Below, in pieces: positions 21,671 to 61,546 of a DNA stretch of 64,000 nt. The position numbers were made by a program, and so were the translations under genes. Positions within the stretch are counted from its first letter, which is position 1; the number at the start of each line of letters is the position of its first letter. The stretch is from contig CM022372.1 of the NCBI GenBank assembly GCA_011800155.1, positions 1,612,001 through 1,676,000 of the forward strand. Reading direction: 5' to 3'. The notes under the pieces are model-generated. The model was not told the origin of the DNA. It made no database searches and worked only from the letters and a program-made list of their open reading frames with translations. The stretch comes from Flammulina velutipes. Taxonomy: Eukaryota; Basidiomycota; Agaricomycetes; Agaricales; Physalacriaceae.

Positions 21671-23062
21671 ATGTCATTTATACGGTACGCCAAGTCTATC
21701 AACTGTTATGTCAATTGCTTAATGTCGCAGGCTGATAGTATGTGTGGCTGGTGTCTACTCTATGTTTCTTGTGCGTGTCATTTCTGTGCTTCACAATCAC
21801 GTTACTGAACTTCTTTAGCTCTGGGCCATCGCACAAGAACGCCGTAAGCTCCGTCCCACAACTATCCCCAGCTGCAATTCAACGAACCGTCCCAGTTTCC
21901 GTCCCATTCAAATCAATAGAAGATGACTCTTCCGCCAAATTCCATTCTGCCATCTTCCTGGGAACATGTCAGAGTATCCTAAGCTCCATATCCGCGCTAG
22001 TCTACATACTCTTCCGACGTAGTAGCAACGCAACCCTCGCTCAAACGCTTGGACTCGGCACGCATCCTGTTCCCACATCCACCTCAAATGGCCACGCAAA
22101 GCACCCCGAAAAGCCCAGCACGCGTTACTCCCATACTGCGCTACTCCTGCGCTACCTCCAATGCGCCGCCTTCATCACTGCGGCCGCCCCATTCGGCTTC
22201 GCTGCCCTCTCATACGTCTCCTACCCAGCAATGGTCCTCGCGAAATCCTGCAAACTCGTTCCCGTCATGATCATGAATGTCCTCCTCTACCGCCGCAAAT
22301 TCGCTCCGCACAAGTACCTCGTCGTGTCCATGGTCACCGCCGGCATCACCATCTTCATGTACATGGGCAACGACAAGAAACATGGCAAATCCGAAACGAC
22401 CAGCGATTCTCCCTATGGCAACATCATCGGTATTACCTACCTGCTCATTAACCTCGCGCTAGACGGTGCCGTGAACTCGACACAGGACGAGATATTTGTA
22501 CGGCATAAAGTGACGGGACAGCAGATGATGTTCTGGATCAACGTTATGTGCTCGGGGATCACCGTCGTTCTTAGTTTGCTGCCACTGCCTCATATTCCTG
22601 TCATTCATCCCTCGGCGGCTGGTACCAGCGAGATGATGGAGGCCCTGGCGTTCATTCGCTCCCACCCATCCATAATATCTCCATTGGCGCAATTCGCGTT
22701 CACTGGAGCACTCGGACAACTATTTATATTCGAGACGTTGCAACATTTTGGAAGCTTAACTTTGGTGTTCGTGTACCTTTATCTGTCCCTGTCATTCACC
22801 TGCTCACATCTTCGCAGAACCATTACTTTAACGCGAAAATTGTTCACCATGCTACTATCGGTGGTCATCTACAAACACTCACTGACTCCTGGACAATGGG
22901 TTGGCGCAGCTGTCGTGTTTGCTGGCATATCAGTAGAAGCCGTCGTTAAGCGGAAAGGTTTGTTTCTTAACGAACGCGAACGACACTATCTGACTTGTGA
23001 TAGATGTACACGCAAAACGGGTGATACAAGAAAAAGAAAAGGCTAAGCTCAAATCATTATAG
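21671..23062 (+). CDS. HUT1: UDP-galactose/nucleotide-sugar transporter HUT1 (SLC35B1 type)
   Basis: Six short to long exons give about 400 residues of a multi-spanning ER membrane transporter. The first exon is only MSFIR (ATG 21671). Splicing then gives LIVCVAGVYSMFLLWAIAQER and LSVPFKSIEDD before the long exon with KFHSAIFLGTCQSILSS, YVSYPAMVLAKSCKLVPVM, YLLINLALDGAVNSTQDEIF and GALGQLFIFETLQHFGSLTLV. A 45-nt intron at 22773-22817 is a multiple of three without stops, so read-through would add 15 residues. Removal restores the family sequence SLTLVFVTITLTRKLFTMLLS. The last exon ends KEKAKLKSL, a lysine-rich ER-retention-like tail. The family carries UDP-sugars, and in animals ATP, across the ER membrane. 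Confidence 0.92.
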
Positions 23063-56493: not shown

Positions 56494-56498
56494 AAGAG
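56494..56498. repeat. Target site duplication, left copy
   Basis: AAGAG directly before the left LTR, repeated after the right LTR. Confidence 0.9.
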
Positions 56499-56605
56499 TG
56501 TTGGAATTATTGAAGTACGAGTAGGAGCATGGACCGTGGGAACTTATGCACATAATCGGACAATTACCGTAGATGCGTCTCAGCGTTTAACCACCACGCT
56601 GAGAC

Positions 56606-56657
56606 GTGAGTACTTCACTCATTTATGCACCGTATAGCTACTAATGCCCTTTCCTAG
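56606..56657 (+). other. Intron-like segment inside the left LTR
   Basis: 52 nt starting GTGAGT, with a branch-like CTACTAAT near 56638-56644 and ending TTTCCTAG. Length and signals match the introns of genes in this window. The same segment is at 61344-61395 in the right LTR. The flanks recur, joined without it, at 56696-56748. Confidence 0.75.
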
Positions 56658-56695
56658 TTATAAGCTAACTAGTCTATTCATCTAGGTATAATACA

Positions 56696-56748
56696 AGCGT
56701 TTAACCACCACGCTGAGACTTATAAGCTAACTAGTCTATTCATCTAGG
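56696..56748 (+). repeat. Intron-less second copy of the flanking LTR sequence
   Basis: 53 nt equal to 56582-56605 (24 nt) plus 56658-56686 (29 nt) joined directly, without any mismatch. The join is exactly at the GT and AG borders of the intron-like segment. The corresponding copy in the right LTR is 61434-61486. Confidence 0.9.
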
Positions 56749-56803
56749 ACAACAACGTGTAAACGTCAACATACGGAACCGCGTCTTCGGCCTGCGTTCA
56801 ACA

Positions 56804-56816
56804 GGTTATGGGCCCC
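56804..56816 (+). other. Putative primer-binding site (initiator tRNA-Met anticodon arm)
   Basis: GGTTATGGGCCCC begins directly after the left LTR. Twelve bases would pair with the anticodon arm of initiator tRNA-Met as known from yeast, with one G-U wobble. The gag-pol ATG lies inside it. Confidence 0.55.
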
Positions 56817-59800
56817 GAGGTCGACTTAAATGCGACGACACAAGTCAAGGTCGTCAGTAGCCTCAAGCTCGACGACGATGGTTCCAATTGGACGACATGG
56901 AGCGAAAAGATCCTGACGAAGATACGGGCTCACGGACTTGGACGACACATACGCTACGACGTCCCTCCGCCTCCAATCCCTGTCTACAAAGACGACAAAA
57001 TCTATCACCCCGACGACCAAAAGGAAGTCAGCGGCACGACCGCGGAGTGCATGGAACTCGTTTACGACAAATGGGAAACAAACGAGGCGAAAATCAAGAC
57101 GTACATCTACGAGTCAGTCAGTAACACGACGTTCAACAACATCAAGCGCAGCGGGTCAGCCCACAAGACCTGGATGAAGCTCGAAGAGCTCCAGACGCAG
57201 AAGGGCGACATCGTACGCGAGCACCTGCTTACCCAACTTGGGAACATGCACTGTGCCGACGACGACGACATGCGCGCTCACCTGAGCAAGATGACGAACA
57301 TTCGCGAACGAATCGAGGGCATGGGCATGACCATCCCCGACGTGCAATTCGTGTCGATGATCCAGAAGTCCCTCCCGCTCCGATATAAACCGACCCAAAT
57401 CTCACTCTCTAATGCCACCCGTGTCGTAAAGACAACCCTCACCTCCGAAGTCCTCATGCAGGCGCTCACCGAATGCTACGACGAGAACTGCCAGGACGCG
57501 AAGACGTCCGAAAATCTCGCGCTCTCGGCGTCGTCGAAGGGAGGTAGCTCGGTGCAGTGTACCAACCCCAACTGCAAAGGAACCGGGCACACGAAGGAGA
57601 ATTGCTGGAAGAAAGGTGGCGGCAAGGAGGGTCAGAGTCCATGGGCGAAAGCGAAGAAGAAACGCGAGGAGCAGAAGCAGAACGGCAAAGGGAAAGGCAA
57701 GGCAGGAGCAGCCATCGGAGATTCCGACGAGTCCGAAACCGAGTCCACCCATATCGCCGTAGCCGCCTGTATTGAAGATGACCACCCTAACGTGGCAATG
57801 CACATCAGTTCCCTTTACGACGAAGAGTGCAAGGCGCTCGTGTCTGACGGTTTCCTTGTTGATGCACTTCTTGACAGTGGCGCCTCTAGTACTTTCTCTC
57901 CCGAACGTGATCGCTTTTCTAATCTAGTCGACATCACTCATAAGCCTATCACTTCCTCCAATGGACAAGTGATTTATGCGGTCGCTCGTGGTGACTTGAC
58001 TGTCCCAATGCCGACGGGCAGAAAGAAGTCGACGTCGACGGTGACAATCCGCGGCGCGTTCTATGCCCCAAAGATCGCTTATACACTCATTTCACTATCT
58101 CAGCTCAGTCGCAGCGGAATCCGCATCGACATTGATCCTACCACTCGCACAATGTCTCTTCACTCGCCTGGTCCTAAATCACACATTTTCGCTCGTATTC
58201 CTGAACGGCGCGGCCTATATCCCGTCTATCTGTCTGGTGCTCCTGTCCCAAAACGCAAGCCAGAAATCTCACTTGTTAGCGCGACGCAGCATGTATCGAT
58301 TGACATGCTCCACCGAATATGCGGTCATCGAAACCACGCAGCTTTACGACGAATGTATCTAGACGGCCGCGTCCTGGGTATCAAACTTGATTTGAACTCG
58401 AAGCCATCTGTCTGCAAGACCTGCCCATTGGCGAAGGCGAAGCACTTACCTTTTCCAAAAGAGGGGAAGTACGAATATGTGGAAAAGACTGGCGACAAGA
58501 TCGTTGTGGACCTAATGGGTCCCATGGAGGTTGCATCGATTAACGGAGCAAAATACGCCTGCACATTCCGCGATCTTCATAGCCGCGAGTCGAAAACCGA
58601 ATACCTCAAAAAGAAATCGGAGGCGTTCAAGGCTTACAAGCACTACGAGGTCTGGATGAAGGTACAACGAGGGGTGGAGGTTATCAAAATCCTGGGCTCG
58701 GACCGAGGGGGAGAGTTTACCAGCGATGAGTTCAACAAACATCTCGCTGGGAAAGGCACTATCCGTCATCTGACGGTGCACGACTCCCCGCAGTCCAACG
58801 GTGTGGCAGAACGTGGAAACGGCTATCTCATGGACATGGCTCGGGCATTTCGCATCGAAGCCAGATTGCCGAAATTCCTGTGGGCTGAAGCTCACCGCCA
58901 CGCTGAATGGGTCTCAAATCGGATTTCTACCAAAGCCATTCCCTCCGGAAAAACACCGCACGAAGTAGCCACCAAGTCGAAGCCGAACCTCTCCGTTCTA
59001 CGCCCATGGGGTAGTCTATGCTGGATCAAGCTGAAAAAGCCTGGCAAGCTCAATGAGCAAGCTTTCGAGGTTCGTTTCGTTGGAGTCGACAATGAATCTA
59101 AAGGCTGGCGCGTCTATTGGCCTGGGCATAGGAAGGTTTCTGTCGAACGGGATGTGTACTTTTCGAAGTATGATCAACACCCAGAGCCCTTGCTGTTCGA
59201 GGGGGAGGGAGAAAAAGCCGTGGCTGAAGACGTTGCCGATCCGCCAGTGGTCGACGAAGTTGTCGAACAGCCAGAGGCACCTCTACCAAAACCTATCATT
59301 CCAGCACCCATCACGACCACCATACCTCCTGCCGCCGTTGCGCCGCCTCCTGTCGCTCAACAGGAACCACCTCTATCACCTCTATCACCTCTATCACCTC
59401 TCACTGAGTCGGATGAGGAAATTGAATCCATTCTTCCACGTCGCTCATCGCGCAAGGCAGCTCAACCTTCCGGAACGTACACCGAACGCGATCTGCGAAA
59501 ACGTCCCACGACAGCCGGATTTGCTGAGTTATTGGAATCCCTCATCGCTGAAGCTGACGACGACTTTTACGAACGGTCTATCGAACACGCTTTTTCCATG
59601 TTCACGGAGCCTATGTCACTCCGAGAAGCACTCAACGGCTCTGACAAGGACATCTGGACCGCGTCAATCCAGGACGAAATTCATCAATGCGAGAAGTTCG
59701 ATACCTGGAGACTCATTGCTGCAGACGACGTTCCAAAGGGTACCAATCTAATTGGAACCCGTTTCGTGTTCCGTGTCAAGCGCAACGAGTACGGCGAGTT

Positions 59801-61211
59801 CGATCGTGCCAAATCTCGTCTGGTTGTTCGTGGCTTCTCCATGATCAAAGGTGTGGATTACTATGACAGCTACGCTCCCGTTGTTCGTCAATCTACCCTT
59901 CGCATCCTTCTCTCCTTCGCAGCCTCTCTCAACGCCGTCATCGACCAAGCAGATCTCAAAAATGCGTACCTCCATGCAGAGATCAAGGAAGACGTCTACA
60001 TCACCTTCCCTTCGGAATGCGAACACATGTTCACCGTTCCCGCACATCTGCAGGGCAAGAAACGCGTTGGAAAGCTGAAGAAGGGCTTGTATGGCACCAA
60101 ACAGGCTGGCCGCGGACTCTACAAGAAGCTGAAAACGACGTTCACCAGTTCTGGCTTCAAAGTCTGCACTGCCGACGAAGCAGTTTTCTATTGCTTTTCG
60201 GGTGACGAATACATCATCGTTGCAGCTGCTACTGATGATTTCACCATCATAGCGAGCTCGCAAGACGTCGCCAACCAGTTCAAGCATGATCTCAGCAAGA
60301 CGTTCGAGCTTGTTGATCTTGGACCCATTCATTGGCTCCTCGGTATGCAGATCACGCGCGACGTTGAAAAGCGAACCATCAGCATCTGCCAGAAGGCCTA
60401 CATCGAGACCCTAGAGCGAAGATTCCACATCGAGGACTCCAAATTCAATCCGCTGACGCCTATGGAAGAATCCATCCAACTTGACCCCAAATCCTCCGCC
60501 GTCTCATCTAACGCTCTTTCCAACAACGACAAAACTCTATATCGTGAACTTATAGGCTCTCTAATGTACGCCATGGTCGCATCTCGCCCTGATATTGCTT
60601 TTGCAATAGCTACTCTTTCCCAATACTTCGAAAATGCGACCGCCACACATCTCAAGGCAGCATTCCGGGTTCTTCATTACCTTGTACGCACCAAGGATCT
60701 CAAACTTACCCTTGGCGGAAAGGATATCACCATACACGCCTACCACGACGCTTCTTTTGCATCCCAACCTGGCAGGAAGTCAATGTCCGGTTTCCTTCTA
60801 TTTGTTGGAGAAGGTGCGGTCATGTGGACTTCAAAGAAGCAACCGCTGGTCACATTATCCTCTGGCGAAGCGGAGTATGTTGGTCTTACCCCCGCGTCGA
60901 CCAACGTCATTTGGCTTCACAAGCTATTGACCGACTTGGACCCCATCATCAAAGTCCCTTCTATCTATCCGGTCAATCCTACAACTCTATACACGGACAG
61001 CGAGAACGCGATTGCGATTTCAAAAGACTCTGTCTTTCATGAACGCACCAAACACATCGGTGTTCGTTACCACTTCGTCCGGCAAGCGATTGAGATGGGA
61101 GATGTGGCACTGAAGTGGATTTCCACTGATCAGATGATAGCGGACGCGTTGACCAAGGCGCTAGGGCGAACCAAATTCGTCTACTTTCGTGGTAAGCTCG
61201 GATTGCATTGA
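56808..61211 (+). CDS. Copia Gag-Pol polyprotein, 1467 residues, intact
   Basis: One open frame without stops. Gag comes first, with a CCHC zinc knuckle near residue 251 (spacing C-x4-C-x4-H-x4-C). The aspartic protease core LDSGAS is near residue 355. Integrase follows, with an HHCC zinc region around 500-545 and catalytic Asp, Asp (SDRGGEF, near 632) and Glu (SNGVAERGNG). Reverse transcriptase spans about 945-1200, with LKNAYLHAEI and the catalytic pair ATDD at 1141-1144, where most copia elements have YVDD. RNase H has HDASFA, SSGEAEY, TDSENAI and ADALTK. The start codon is only 4 nt after the LTR. A Pro/Ser linker with three SPL repeats separates integrase and RT. Confidence 0.95.
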   Translation: MGPEVDLNATTQVKVVSSLKLDDDGSNWTTWSEKILTKIRAHGLGRHIRYDVPPPPIPVYKDDKIYHPDDQKEVSGTTAECMELVYDKWETNEAKIKTYIYESVSNTTFNNIKRSGSAHKTWMKLEELQTQKGDIVREHLLTQLGNMHCADDDDMRAHLSKMTNIRERIEGMGMTIPDVQFVSMIQKSLPLRYKPTQISLSNATRVVKTTLTSEVLMQALTECYDENCQDAKTSENLALSASSKGGSSVQCTNPNCKGTGHTKENCWKKGGGKEGQSPWAKAKKKREEQKQNGKGKGKAGAAIGDSDESETESTHIAVAACIEDDHPNVAMHISSLYDEECKALVSDGFLVDALLDSGASSTFSPERDRFSNLVDITHKPITSSNGQVIYAVARGDLTVPMPTGRKKSTSTVTIRGAFYAPKIAYTLISLSQLSRSGIRIDIDPTTRTMSLHSPGPKSHIFARIPERRGLYPVYLSGAPVPKRKPEISLVSATQHVSIDMLHRICGHRNHAALRRMYLDGRVLGIKLDLNSKPSVCKTCPLAKAKHLPFPKEGKYEYVEKTGDKIVVDLMGPMEVASINGAKYACTFRDLHSRESKTEYLKKKSEAFKAYKHYEVWMKVQRGVEVIKILGSDRGGEFTSDEFNKHLAGKGTIRHLTVHDSPQSNGVAERGNGYLMDMARAFRIEARLPKFLWAEAHRHAEWVSNRISTKAIPSGKTPHEVATKSKPNLSVLRPWGSLCWIKLKKPGKLNEQAFEVRFVGVDNESKGWRVYWPGHRKVSVERDVYFSKYDQHPEPLLFEGEGEKAVAEDVADPPVVDEVVEQPEAPLPKPIIPAPITTTIPPAAVAPPPVAQQEPPLSPLSPLSPLTESDEEIESILPRRSSRKAAQPSGTYTERDLRKRPTTAGFAELLESLIAEADDDFYERSIEHAFSMFTEPMSLREALNGSDKDIWTASIQDEIHQCEKFDTWRLIAADDVPKGTNLIGTRFVFRVKRNEYGEFDRAKSRLVVRGFSMIKGVDYYDSYAPVVRQSTLRILLSFAASLNAVIDQADLKNAYLHAEIKEDVYITFPSECEHMFTVPAHLQGKKRVGKLKKGLYGTKQAGRGLYKKLKTTFTSSGFKVCTADEAVFYCFSGDEYIIVAAATDDFTIIASSQDVANQFKHDLSKTFELVDLGPIHWLLGMQITRDVEKRTISICQKAYIETLERRFHIEDSKFNPLTPMEESIQLDPKSSAVSSNALSNNDKTLYRELIGSLMYAMVASRPDIAFAIATLSQYFENATATHLKAAFRVLHYLVRTKDLKLTLGGKDITIHAYHDASFASQPGRKSMSGFLLFVGEGAVMWTSKKQPLVTLSSGEAEYVGLTPASTNVIWLHKLLTDLDPIIKVPSIYPVNPTTLYTDSENAIAISKDSVFHERTKHIGVRYHFVRQAIEMGDVALKWISTDQMIADALTKALGRTKFVYFRGKLGLH

Positions 61212-61227
61212 CGTCCGTGCTCCACTC

Positions 61228-61236
61228 GAGGGGGAG
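61228..61236 (+). other. Polypurine tract
   Basis: GAGGGGGAG immediately before the right LTR, the expected primer for plus-strand synthesis. Confidence 0.8.
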
Positions 61237-61541
61237 TGTTGGAATTATTGAAGTACGAGTAGGAGCATGGACCGTGGGAACTTATGCACATAATCGGACA
61301 ATTACCGTAGATGCGTCTCAGCGTTTAACCACCACGCTGAGACGTGAGTACTTCACTCATTTATGCACCGTATAGCTACTAATGCCCTTTCCTAGTTATA
61401 AGCTAACTAGTCTATTCATCTAGGTATAATACAAGCGTTTAACCACCACGCTGAGACTTATAAGCTAACTAGTCTATTCATCTAGGACAACAACGTGTAA
61501 ACGTCAACATACGGAACCGCGTCTTCGGCCTGCGTTCAACA
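61237..61541 (+). repeat. Right LTR
   Basis: 305 bp, reads identical to the left LTR, including the intron-like segment (61344-61395) and its intron-less copy (61434-61486). Confidence 0.95.
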
Positions 61542-61546
61542 AAGAG
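61542..61546. repeat. Target site duplication, right copy
   Basis: AAGAG directly after the right LTR. Confidence 0.9.

Follow-up and report, generated by a model that had tools for sequence, protein, structure and literature searches.

The long terminal repeats (LTRs) of a copia retrotransposon, F1, each hold two intron-like segments, the second of which ends in a ready-spliced copy of the sequence flanking the first, and this kind of arrangement is not unique to F1: it is found in six families of one genome. The explanation that best covers the data as a whole, and that is probably correct, is that the leader introns are spliced out of the RNA and are then restored by way of the ready-spliced copy, R2, at strand transfer. 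The evidence is a comparison of sequences within a single genome. The DNA studied is a 64 kb window (G000:C5:1612001-1676000), in whose own numbering the F1 positions are given, and the genome searched is a 38.1-Mb assembly of 23 contigs. The host is a mushroom of the Agaricales, probably near Physalacriaceae: the named proteins most similar to a UDP-galactose transporter of the window (21742-23043) come from Hymenopellis, Cylindrobasidium and Armillaria, with Mucidula at 70%, and one metagenome protein matches it at 100% identity over 62%.

Why should this matter? The loss of introns serves as the classic test of retrotransposition (PMC12786077). If the proposed reading is true, an LTR that removes and restores its introns in each cycle would be a clear exception to the loss of introns on passage through RNA, and the mechanism would be a simple one, apparent from the sequence and open to testing by ordinary RNA reads. 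Such an LTR would also tie the design of a retrotransposon to the need of basidiomycetes for introns in expression. In Cryptococcus neoformans most of the genes tested are reported to lose much of their mRNA when their introns are removed (PMC3744415), and efficient expression of a reporter is reported to require an intron in Armillaria mellea (PMC4935854) and in Ganoderma lucidum (PMC7017817). A retrotransposon in such an intron-requiring host would gain from an intron that it cannot lose.

Anatomy of the F1 element and its LTRs

F1 is a copia element of 5043 bp at 56499-61541 on the plus strand, bounded by two identical LTRs of 305 bp each (56499-56803 and 61237-61541). Its features are as follows.

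56494-56498, plus strand: left copy of the target site duplication AAGAG; the right copy is at 61542-61546
56499-56803, plus strand: left LTR, TG...CA, an exact repeat of 61237-61541 with AAGAG on both sides; U3 is about 56499-56581
56552-56556, plus strand: weak TATA-like word ATAAT, about 30 nt 5' of the repeat start; a slightly better F1 word lies at -74
56582-56605, plus strand: exon A of R1, at the repeat's left edge; transcription is proposed to start at 56582 (C/A)
56606-56657, plus strand: putative intron 1, 52 nt, with GTGAGT, branch CTAAT and CCTAG, missing from the second copy exactly at GT and AG; length and motifs are host-like
56658-56685, plus strand: exon B of R1, 28 nt, ending in CTAG, delimited by comparison of the repeats
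56686-56747, plus strand: putative intron 2, 62 nt, GTATAATACA followed by a complete spliced R copy; AG/GT ends B1 and AG ends B2, as in all four type II families (defined below)
56696-56719, plus strand: A block of R2, the ready-spliced R copy, identical to 56582-56605 at 24/24 positions
56720-56747, plus strand: B block of R2, identical to 56658-56685 at 28/28 positions
56748-56803, plus strand: proposed third leader exon inside the LTR (U5), 3' of the intron 2 acceptor; the LTR ends in TTCAACA
56804-56820, plus strand: primer binding site GGTTATGGGCCCCGAGG, directly 3' of the LTR and containing the gag ATG (56808)
56808-61211, plus strand: gag-pol, a single intact open reading frame of 1467 aa in copia domain order, integrase before reverse transcriptase (RT)
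61227-61236, plus strand: purine tract CGAGGGGGAG, plus-strand primer, adjoining the right LTR
61237-61541, plus strand: right LTR, with the same order (intron 1 at 61344-61395, intron 2 at 61424-61485, R2 at 61434-61485)

A first-pass annotation had described 24, 52 and 29 nt in the left LTR followed by an exact copy of the outer two blocks, with the same layout in the right LTR, and a letter-by-letter comparison bears this out. The 24 nt at 56582-56605 recur at 56696-56719 and the 29 nt at 56658-56686 recur at 56720-56748; the 52-nt segment between them (56606-56657), GTGAGT...CTACTAAT...CCTAG, is missing from the copy at a junction that is not shiftable by one base in either direction. The ends of the blocks did need refinement. 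The natural blocks measure 24 and 28 nt, and the 29th base of B is the G of the next GT (56686) in one case and the first exon base (56748) in the other: both B blocks end in CTAG, the first (56658-56685) running on into GTATAA and the second (56720-56747) into GACAAC. What had been missed is a second intron-like segment around the copy, at 56686-56747, made of a short donor piece and then the whole spliced copy.

Do these segments look like introns of the host? Over both strands of the window, both F1 LTRs included, the pattern GTRNGT...CTRAY...YAG occurs 28 times at lengths of 40-59 nt against 5.8 expected, and at 60 nt or more the window has no clear excess. The 52-nt intron 1 fits this host mode, with its GTGAGT donor and CTAAT 13 nt from its end. 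Intron 2 has GT, AG and CTAAC, the branch CTAAC and the terminal CTAG sitting within the R copy, and its donor GTATAA and length of 62 nt lie outside the mode. A codon-score intron finder gave 11 candidates, and that approach failed.

Two further observations concern the leader. A perfect 11-bp inverted repeat, CGTCTCAGCGT/ACGCTGAGACG at 56576-56586/56596-56606 with a 9-nt loop, has as its last base the first of intron 1 and is present in the right LTR too; an RNA hairpin over the intron 1 donor was rejected, the left arm lying partly 5' of the proposed RNA start. In F1 every ATG that precedes the gag ATG in the proposed leader lies in intron 1; a uORF switch built on this was dropped, since F2 has an ATG in exon A.

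F1 has the hallmarks of a Ty1/copia element: gag and RVT_2 domains, integrase before RT, TG...CA LTRs, a 5-bp target site duplication and a purine tract. A domain search finds the copia gag (PF14223, E=6.3e-20) and RVT_2 (PF07727, E=4.3e-46), and the order along the 1467 aa is rve at 561-651, SH3 at 723-787 and RVT_2 at 965-1212, the rve match of 24.4 bits being under the curated cut-off of 32.6. Over the aligned parts, the 15 best-matching outside proteins share 32-40% identity with F1, and the remaining copia matches in the genome are 25-36% identical to it. The primer may be half of an initiator tRNA-Met, which the letters of the primer binding site resemble; the 64 kb window contains no tRNA genes.

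A search of the 38.1 Mb for F1 gave five elements and one solo LTR, and all six insertions, the solo LTR included, have a 5-bp target duplication of their own sequence. The first-pass annotation had advised looking up related LTRs in the same genome; 11 of 11 F1 LTRs proved letter-identical over 305 bp, all with both introns. Because the 11 are identical, F1 has evidently transposed recently. One copy, at G000:C2:3151516-3156267, has an internal deletion (LTR spacing 4447 as against 4738) and an open frame of 1385 aa; residues about 620-714 of the F1 reading frame have no match in it.

Six families with the arrangement

The arrangement takes two forms. Type II consists of exon A, intron 1, exon B, a donor and a spliced A-B copy, and is that of the copia families F1, F2, F3 and F6; type I consists of R, an intron whose 3' end is an R copy terminating in AG, and U5, and is that of copia F5 and gypsy F4. 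The families were found by reading copia LTRs and then by a scan of 330,195 bases (overlapping loci included). Type II is seen in two LTRs of F2 (contig C7), in two of F3 (C10), of which the right one is interrupted by an F4 insertion, and in the one, decayed LTR of F6 (C7). Type I is seen in two identical LTRs of F5 (C6; intron of 54 nt, R 24/24), and F4 has 33 LTR matches that are 93-100% identical, its reference copy having an intron of 58 nt and R 23/23. The reverse transcriptase, RNase H and integrase zinc domains of F4 place it in Ty3/gypsy. The arrangement is present in five of the six copia families with an LTR examined, a count outside which one further RT fragment (C7:636200) lies, and is absent from copia family F7 (C9).

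The edges agree closely from family to family. Intron 1 of type II measures 52 nt in F1, 48 in F2, 52 in F3 and 49 in F6, and in all four it is cut from R2 exactly at GT and AG. In 4/4 families, moreover, a GT comes directly after B1 and an AG closes B2, features that played no part in the search for type II; the B1 borders read CTAG/GTATAA in F1, ACAG/GTAATG in F2, ATAG/GTAATT in F3 and CTAG/GTGAAT in F6. Intron 2 measures 62, 54, 62 and 61 nt in the same order and ends each time with R2. Spliced R1 and R2 differ at 0/52 positions in F1, 0/44 in F2, 0/54 in F3, 0/23 in the F4 reference, 0/24 in F5 and 3/52 in F6. As for host likeness, the type II intron 2 donors (GTATAA, GTAATG, GTAATT, GTGAAT) are without a +5 G, and the 61-62 nt of intron 2 in three of the four families are beyond the host mode. 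A CTRAY or TTRAY branch motif is absent from both F3 introns and from intron 2 of F6, and F2 intron 2 has only TTAAC.

The few differences between copies deserve a word. The three of F6 (L047 5043-5300) are all transitions in B, in an LTR that adjoins an RT stretch with stop codons, and they look like decay after insertion. For F4 the comparison set was the reference and seven fetched LTRs (of the 33 matches), one fetched LTR being truncated; R1 equals R2 in four of seven full LTRs, and the other three differ by 2, 4 and 2 changes, all C-to-T or G-to-A, which fits decay after insertion and is no positive test of renewal.

F2 and F6 are relatives. Their RTs are 53% identical over 334 aa, and the similarity score of their LTRs is reached by 0/200 shuffles. 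Their A blocks differ from each other, yet the two copies agree inside each LTR (27/27 and 26/26), and therefore the copies have changed in concert. Over 21 compared LTR pairs the families are otherwise mostly unlike, with weak similarities in F1-F7 (0/200 shuffles), F3-F6 (1/200) and F3-F4 (4/200). In an RT-region tree of F1, F2, F3, F5, F7 and outside proteins, whose base is not resolved, F1, F3 and F5 join different outside proteins (support 0.98, 0.96 and 0.96) and F2 stands apart with F7 (support 0.37). An arrangement that recurs in mostly unlike LTRs, with matching copies in each, points to renewal by replication.

This bears directly on how the second copy arose. The first-pass annotation had proposed that it came from a spliced element RNA reverse-transcribed into the LTR, and the comparison supports this. 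It had also pictured a single template-switching accident, later fixed, and here the data part company with it: four copia families share the full order, and a further copia family and a gypsy family have it in simpler form. One accidental switch from a spliced RNA, fixed in F1 only, would account for the block order and the exact junction; five other families share this kind of arrangement, which largely refutes it unless each had a recent accident of its own, and we hold it to be very improbable.

Could the order of events have been the reverse? Introns born by tandem genomic duplication have flanking direct repeats and AG/G at both borders, and intron 2 resembles them, since it spans copy 1 to copy 2 with AG/G at both ends. 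A tandem duplication of the leader in DNA might then have created the introns, or an intron might have been inserted into one of two tandem copies, with replication uninvolved. The differences from duplication-born introns are that copy 2 is here the spliced product and that what is repeated is the R region of an LTR. Against this origin stands the fact that copy 2 is without intron 1 exactly, in four families. A duplication should moreover leave the same AGGT continuation in both copies, whereas after AG copy 1 of F1 has GTATAATACA and copy 2 has GACAACAAC, which is no plain duplication. Nor was a source of the 52 nt found: a search of the genome with its first 32 nt, at up to 3 mismatches, returned only the 11 F1 LTRs, and intron gain in one of two tandem copies, the converse raised in the first-pass annotation, thus finds no support. 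We give these DNA-level origins very little chance.

Where would the RNA begin? A TATA-like word lies 30-34 nt 5' of the repeat in each of the six families (TATAAA at -33 in F3), the words of F1, F2 and F6 being weak and the single best word of F1, F5 and F6 lying elsewhere upstream. When the TATA scores of the six families are added up, a single sharp peak stands at -36 to -28 from the repeat start (23.1, against a window median of -21.9). Among 5000 shuffles with a 7-nt window, none reach the peak in place and 6 reach its score anywhere, in a test that was post hoc, the positions being known beforehand. The left edge of the repeat is Y/A in only 4/6 families. By this summed signal, the left edge of the repeat behaves like a candidate RNA start.

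A proposed replication cycle and its alternatives

From the anatomy of the LTRs, its repetition in six families and the TATA spacing we infer a cycle in which actual splicing, an RNA start, a poly(A) site past R2, a 3' LTR left unspliced and a strand transfer would each have a part. The plan of the LTR would be U3, R1, intron, R2 and U5, with R2 as a ready-spliced R1 copy at the 3' end of the intron; in F1, R1 would hold an extra intron (A, intron 1, B). Transcription from the left LTR would begin at about the first base of A (56582), and both introns would leave the cap-proximal leader, giving an RNA that starts with A-B joined to U5. The predicted spliced leader of F1 has 112 nt before the gag ATG, compared with 226 when unspliced. 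The 3' end of the RNA, which comes from the right LTR, would stay unspliced and end in the contiguous A-B of R2.

In the usual cycle, strong-stop DNA made from the 5' R pairs with the R at the 3' end of the RNA. Here, minus-strand strong-stop DNA copied from spliced A-B-U5 would pair with A-B of the 3' LTR, and would land on R2 because only R2 has A-B in one piece there. With the unspliced 3' LTR as template, extension would then run through intron 2, R1 together with its intron 1, and U3. Each new LTR would thereby recover both introns, and R2 would be rewritten from spliced R1, so that the copies stay alike. Such a transfer would explain the exact junction, the block order, the likeness of the copies, the borders of intron 2 and the survival of introns through an RNA stage. 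The block order suits strand transfer, with the unspliced R next to U3 and the spliced R next to U5, and both introns are kept in 11/11 F1 LTRs despite evidently recent transposition.

The proposed cycle makes one demand: the 3' LTR of the copied RNA would have to escape splicing although both introns are complete there, and the sequence reveals no means. A poly(A) site close behind R2 could deprive intron 2 of a downstream exon, and intron 1 would not be protected by it. Failures would amount to intron loss; type II could in this way be reduced to type I, and a type I LTR could become intronless, as that of F7 is. A strong-stop jump from end to end, with 9 untemplated bases, is not favoured as the main reading of F1, though it may have produced the first duplication.

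An alternative, which we consider unlikely, dispenses with the splicing of one end only. The copied genomic RNA would be wholly unspliced, splicing would serve only mRNA, and R2 would have arisen once by a strand jump from a spliced RNA, being kept alike by rare later events or simply by recency. The two ends of one RNA would not have to be spliced differently; the 11 F1 LTRs are identical and hence young; and in barley BARE1 an unspliced pool separate from the spliced mRNA is what is replicated (PMC3735527). Left unexplained are the equality of R2 with spliced R1 in six families of mostly unlike sequence, the intron 2 sites exactly at the ends of R, and the joint change in F2 and F6.

How does this proposed cycle compare with known systems? 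Retroviruses such as HTLV-1 and foamy viruses have, like the elements described here, a splice donor in the 5' R region; their acceptor lies far downstream, and none is known to carry an intron confined to the LTR alongside a spliced copy of R. BARE1 of barley, Drosophila copia and EVADE are, like F1, Ty1/copia elements with spliced RNA, and they have separate spliced and full RNAs, with introns in the internal part that make a Gag-only RNA, whereas the F1 introns lie inside the LTR (PMC3735527, PMC12786077). The replicated RNA of BARE is considered to be unspliced, whereas the F1 introns are apparently removed and restored by replication (PMC3735527). Intron-marked Ty elements show that a retrotransposon intron is lost through the RNA stage; the introns here persist in the LTR, apparently thanks to the ready-spliced R in the 3' LTR (PMC12786077). 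Within the portions of open-access full text that the literature search covered, no LTR intron of this kind was found.

A wider claim is one that we take seriously but would not yet back: self-renewing LTR introns may be a general solution, at which several copia lineages and a gypsy element have arrived, for carrying introns through reverse transcription, and possibly favoured since basidiomycete hosts express intronless genes poorly. The LTR would store a ready-spliced R as a landing site, and splicing would be a built-in step of the cycle that rewrites R2 in each round.

Wider scans and nested elements

LTRs often contain tandem repeats, and one may ask whether ordinary promoter repeats with a chance GT and AG at their edges could mimic the arrangement. 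A looser scan did give one additional, unrelated match (L045 minus 7500), and the strict scan had one hit besides the families, a repeat in the coding part of F2 on the opposite strand (L044 minus 1548). Scanning both strands of 20 randomized sequences of the 64 kb window (first-order, dinucleotide) turned up neither type of structure, and four readings of the real window minus the F1 element gave none; a chance repeat was rejected on the random-window scan, and exact GT and AG stand at ten intron positions in six families. Ordinary tandem repeats are, in our judgement, hardly credible as the explanation.

Among gypsy elements, 13 3' stretches, chosen from 62 integrase matches and some perhaps without an LTR, had no such arrangement in the strict or looser scan; the single match there, of 11 nt and 237 nt, is chance-like. 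Relatives elsewhere came from two collections: viral_contigs gave no loci by protein and one by alignment, and genome_contigs gave 55 copia loci, in prokaryote bins. In these 56 outside loci, mostly distant, no arrangement was counted; 19 of the 56 have a direct repeat of at least 60 nt spaced over 3 kb, some of them assembly-overlap-like, and few real LTRs were covered. Scan matches in four of the 56 (L083, L111, L125 and L126) all lie on the strand opposite to the copia match and were set aside; in nearly all of them identity continues past GT as in plain tandem repeats, and one L125 match stops at a contig end.

Three minor observations concern the families themselves. The TATA region of F7, GGTATAAAAGCGAAGCGT... 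(L042 about 2503-2537), resembles the end of B1 and the start of the R copy in F1, GGTATAATACAAGCGT... (56683-56715), at a level reached by 0/200 shuffles, with 21 pairs compared. The F4 gypsy element that splits the right LTR of copia F3 is inserted in its R region (L045 349-6369; C10:2316756-2316932). Lastly, the two identical LTRs of F5 (G000:C6:358022-383180) stand about 25 kb apart, and a large nested insertion is therefore likely.
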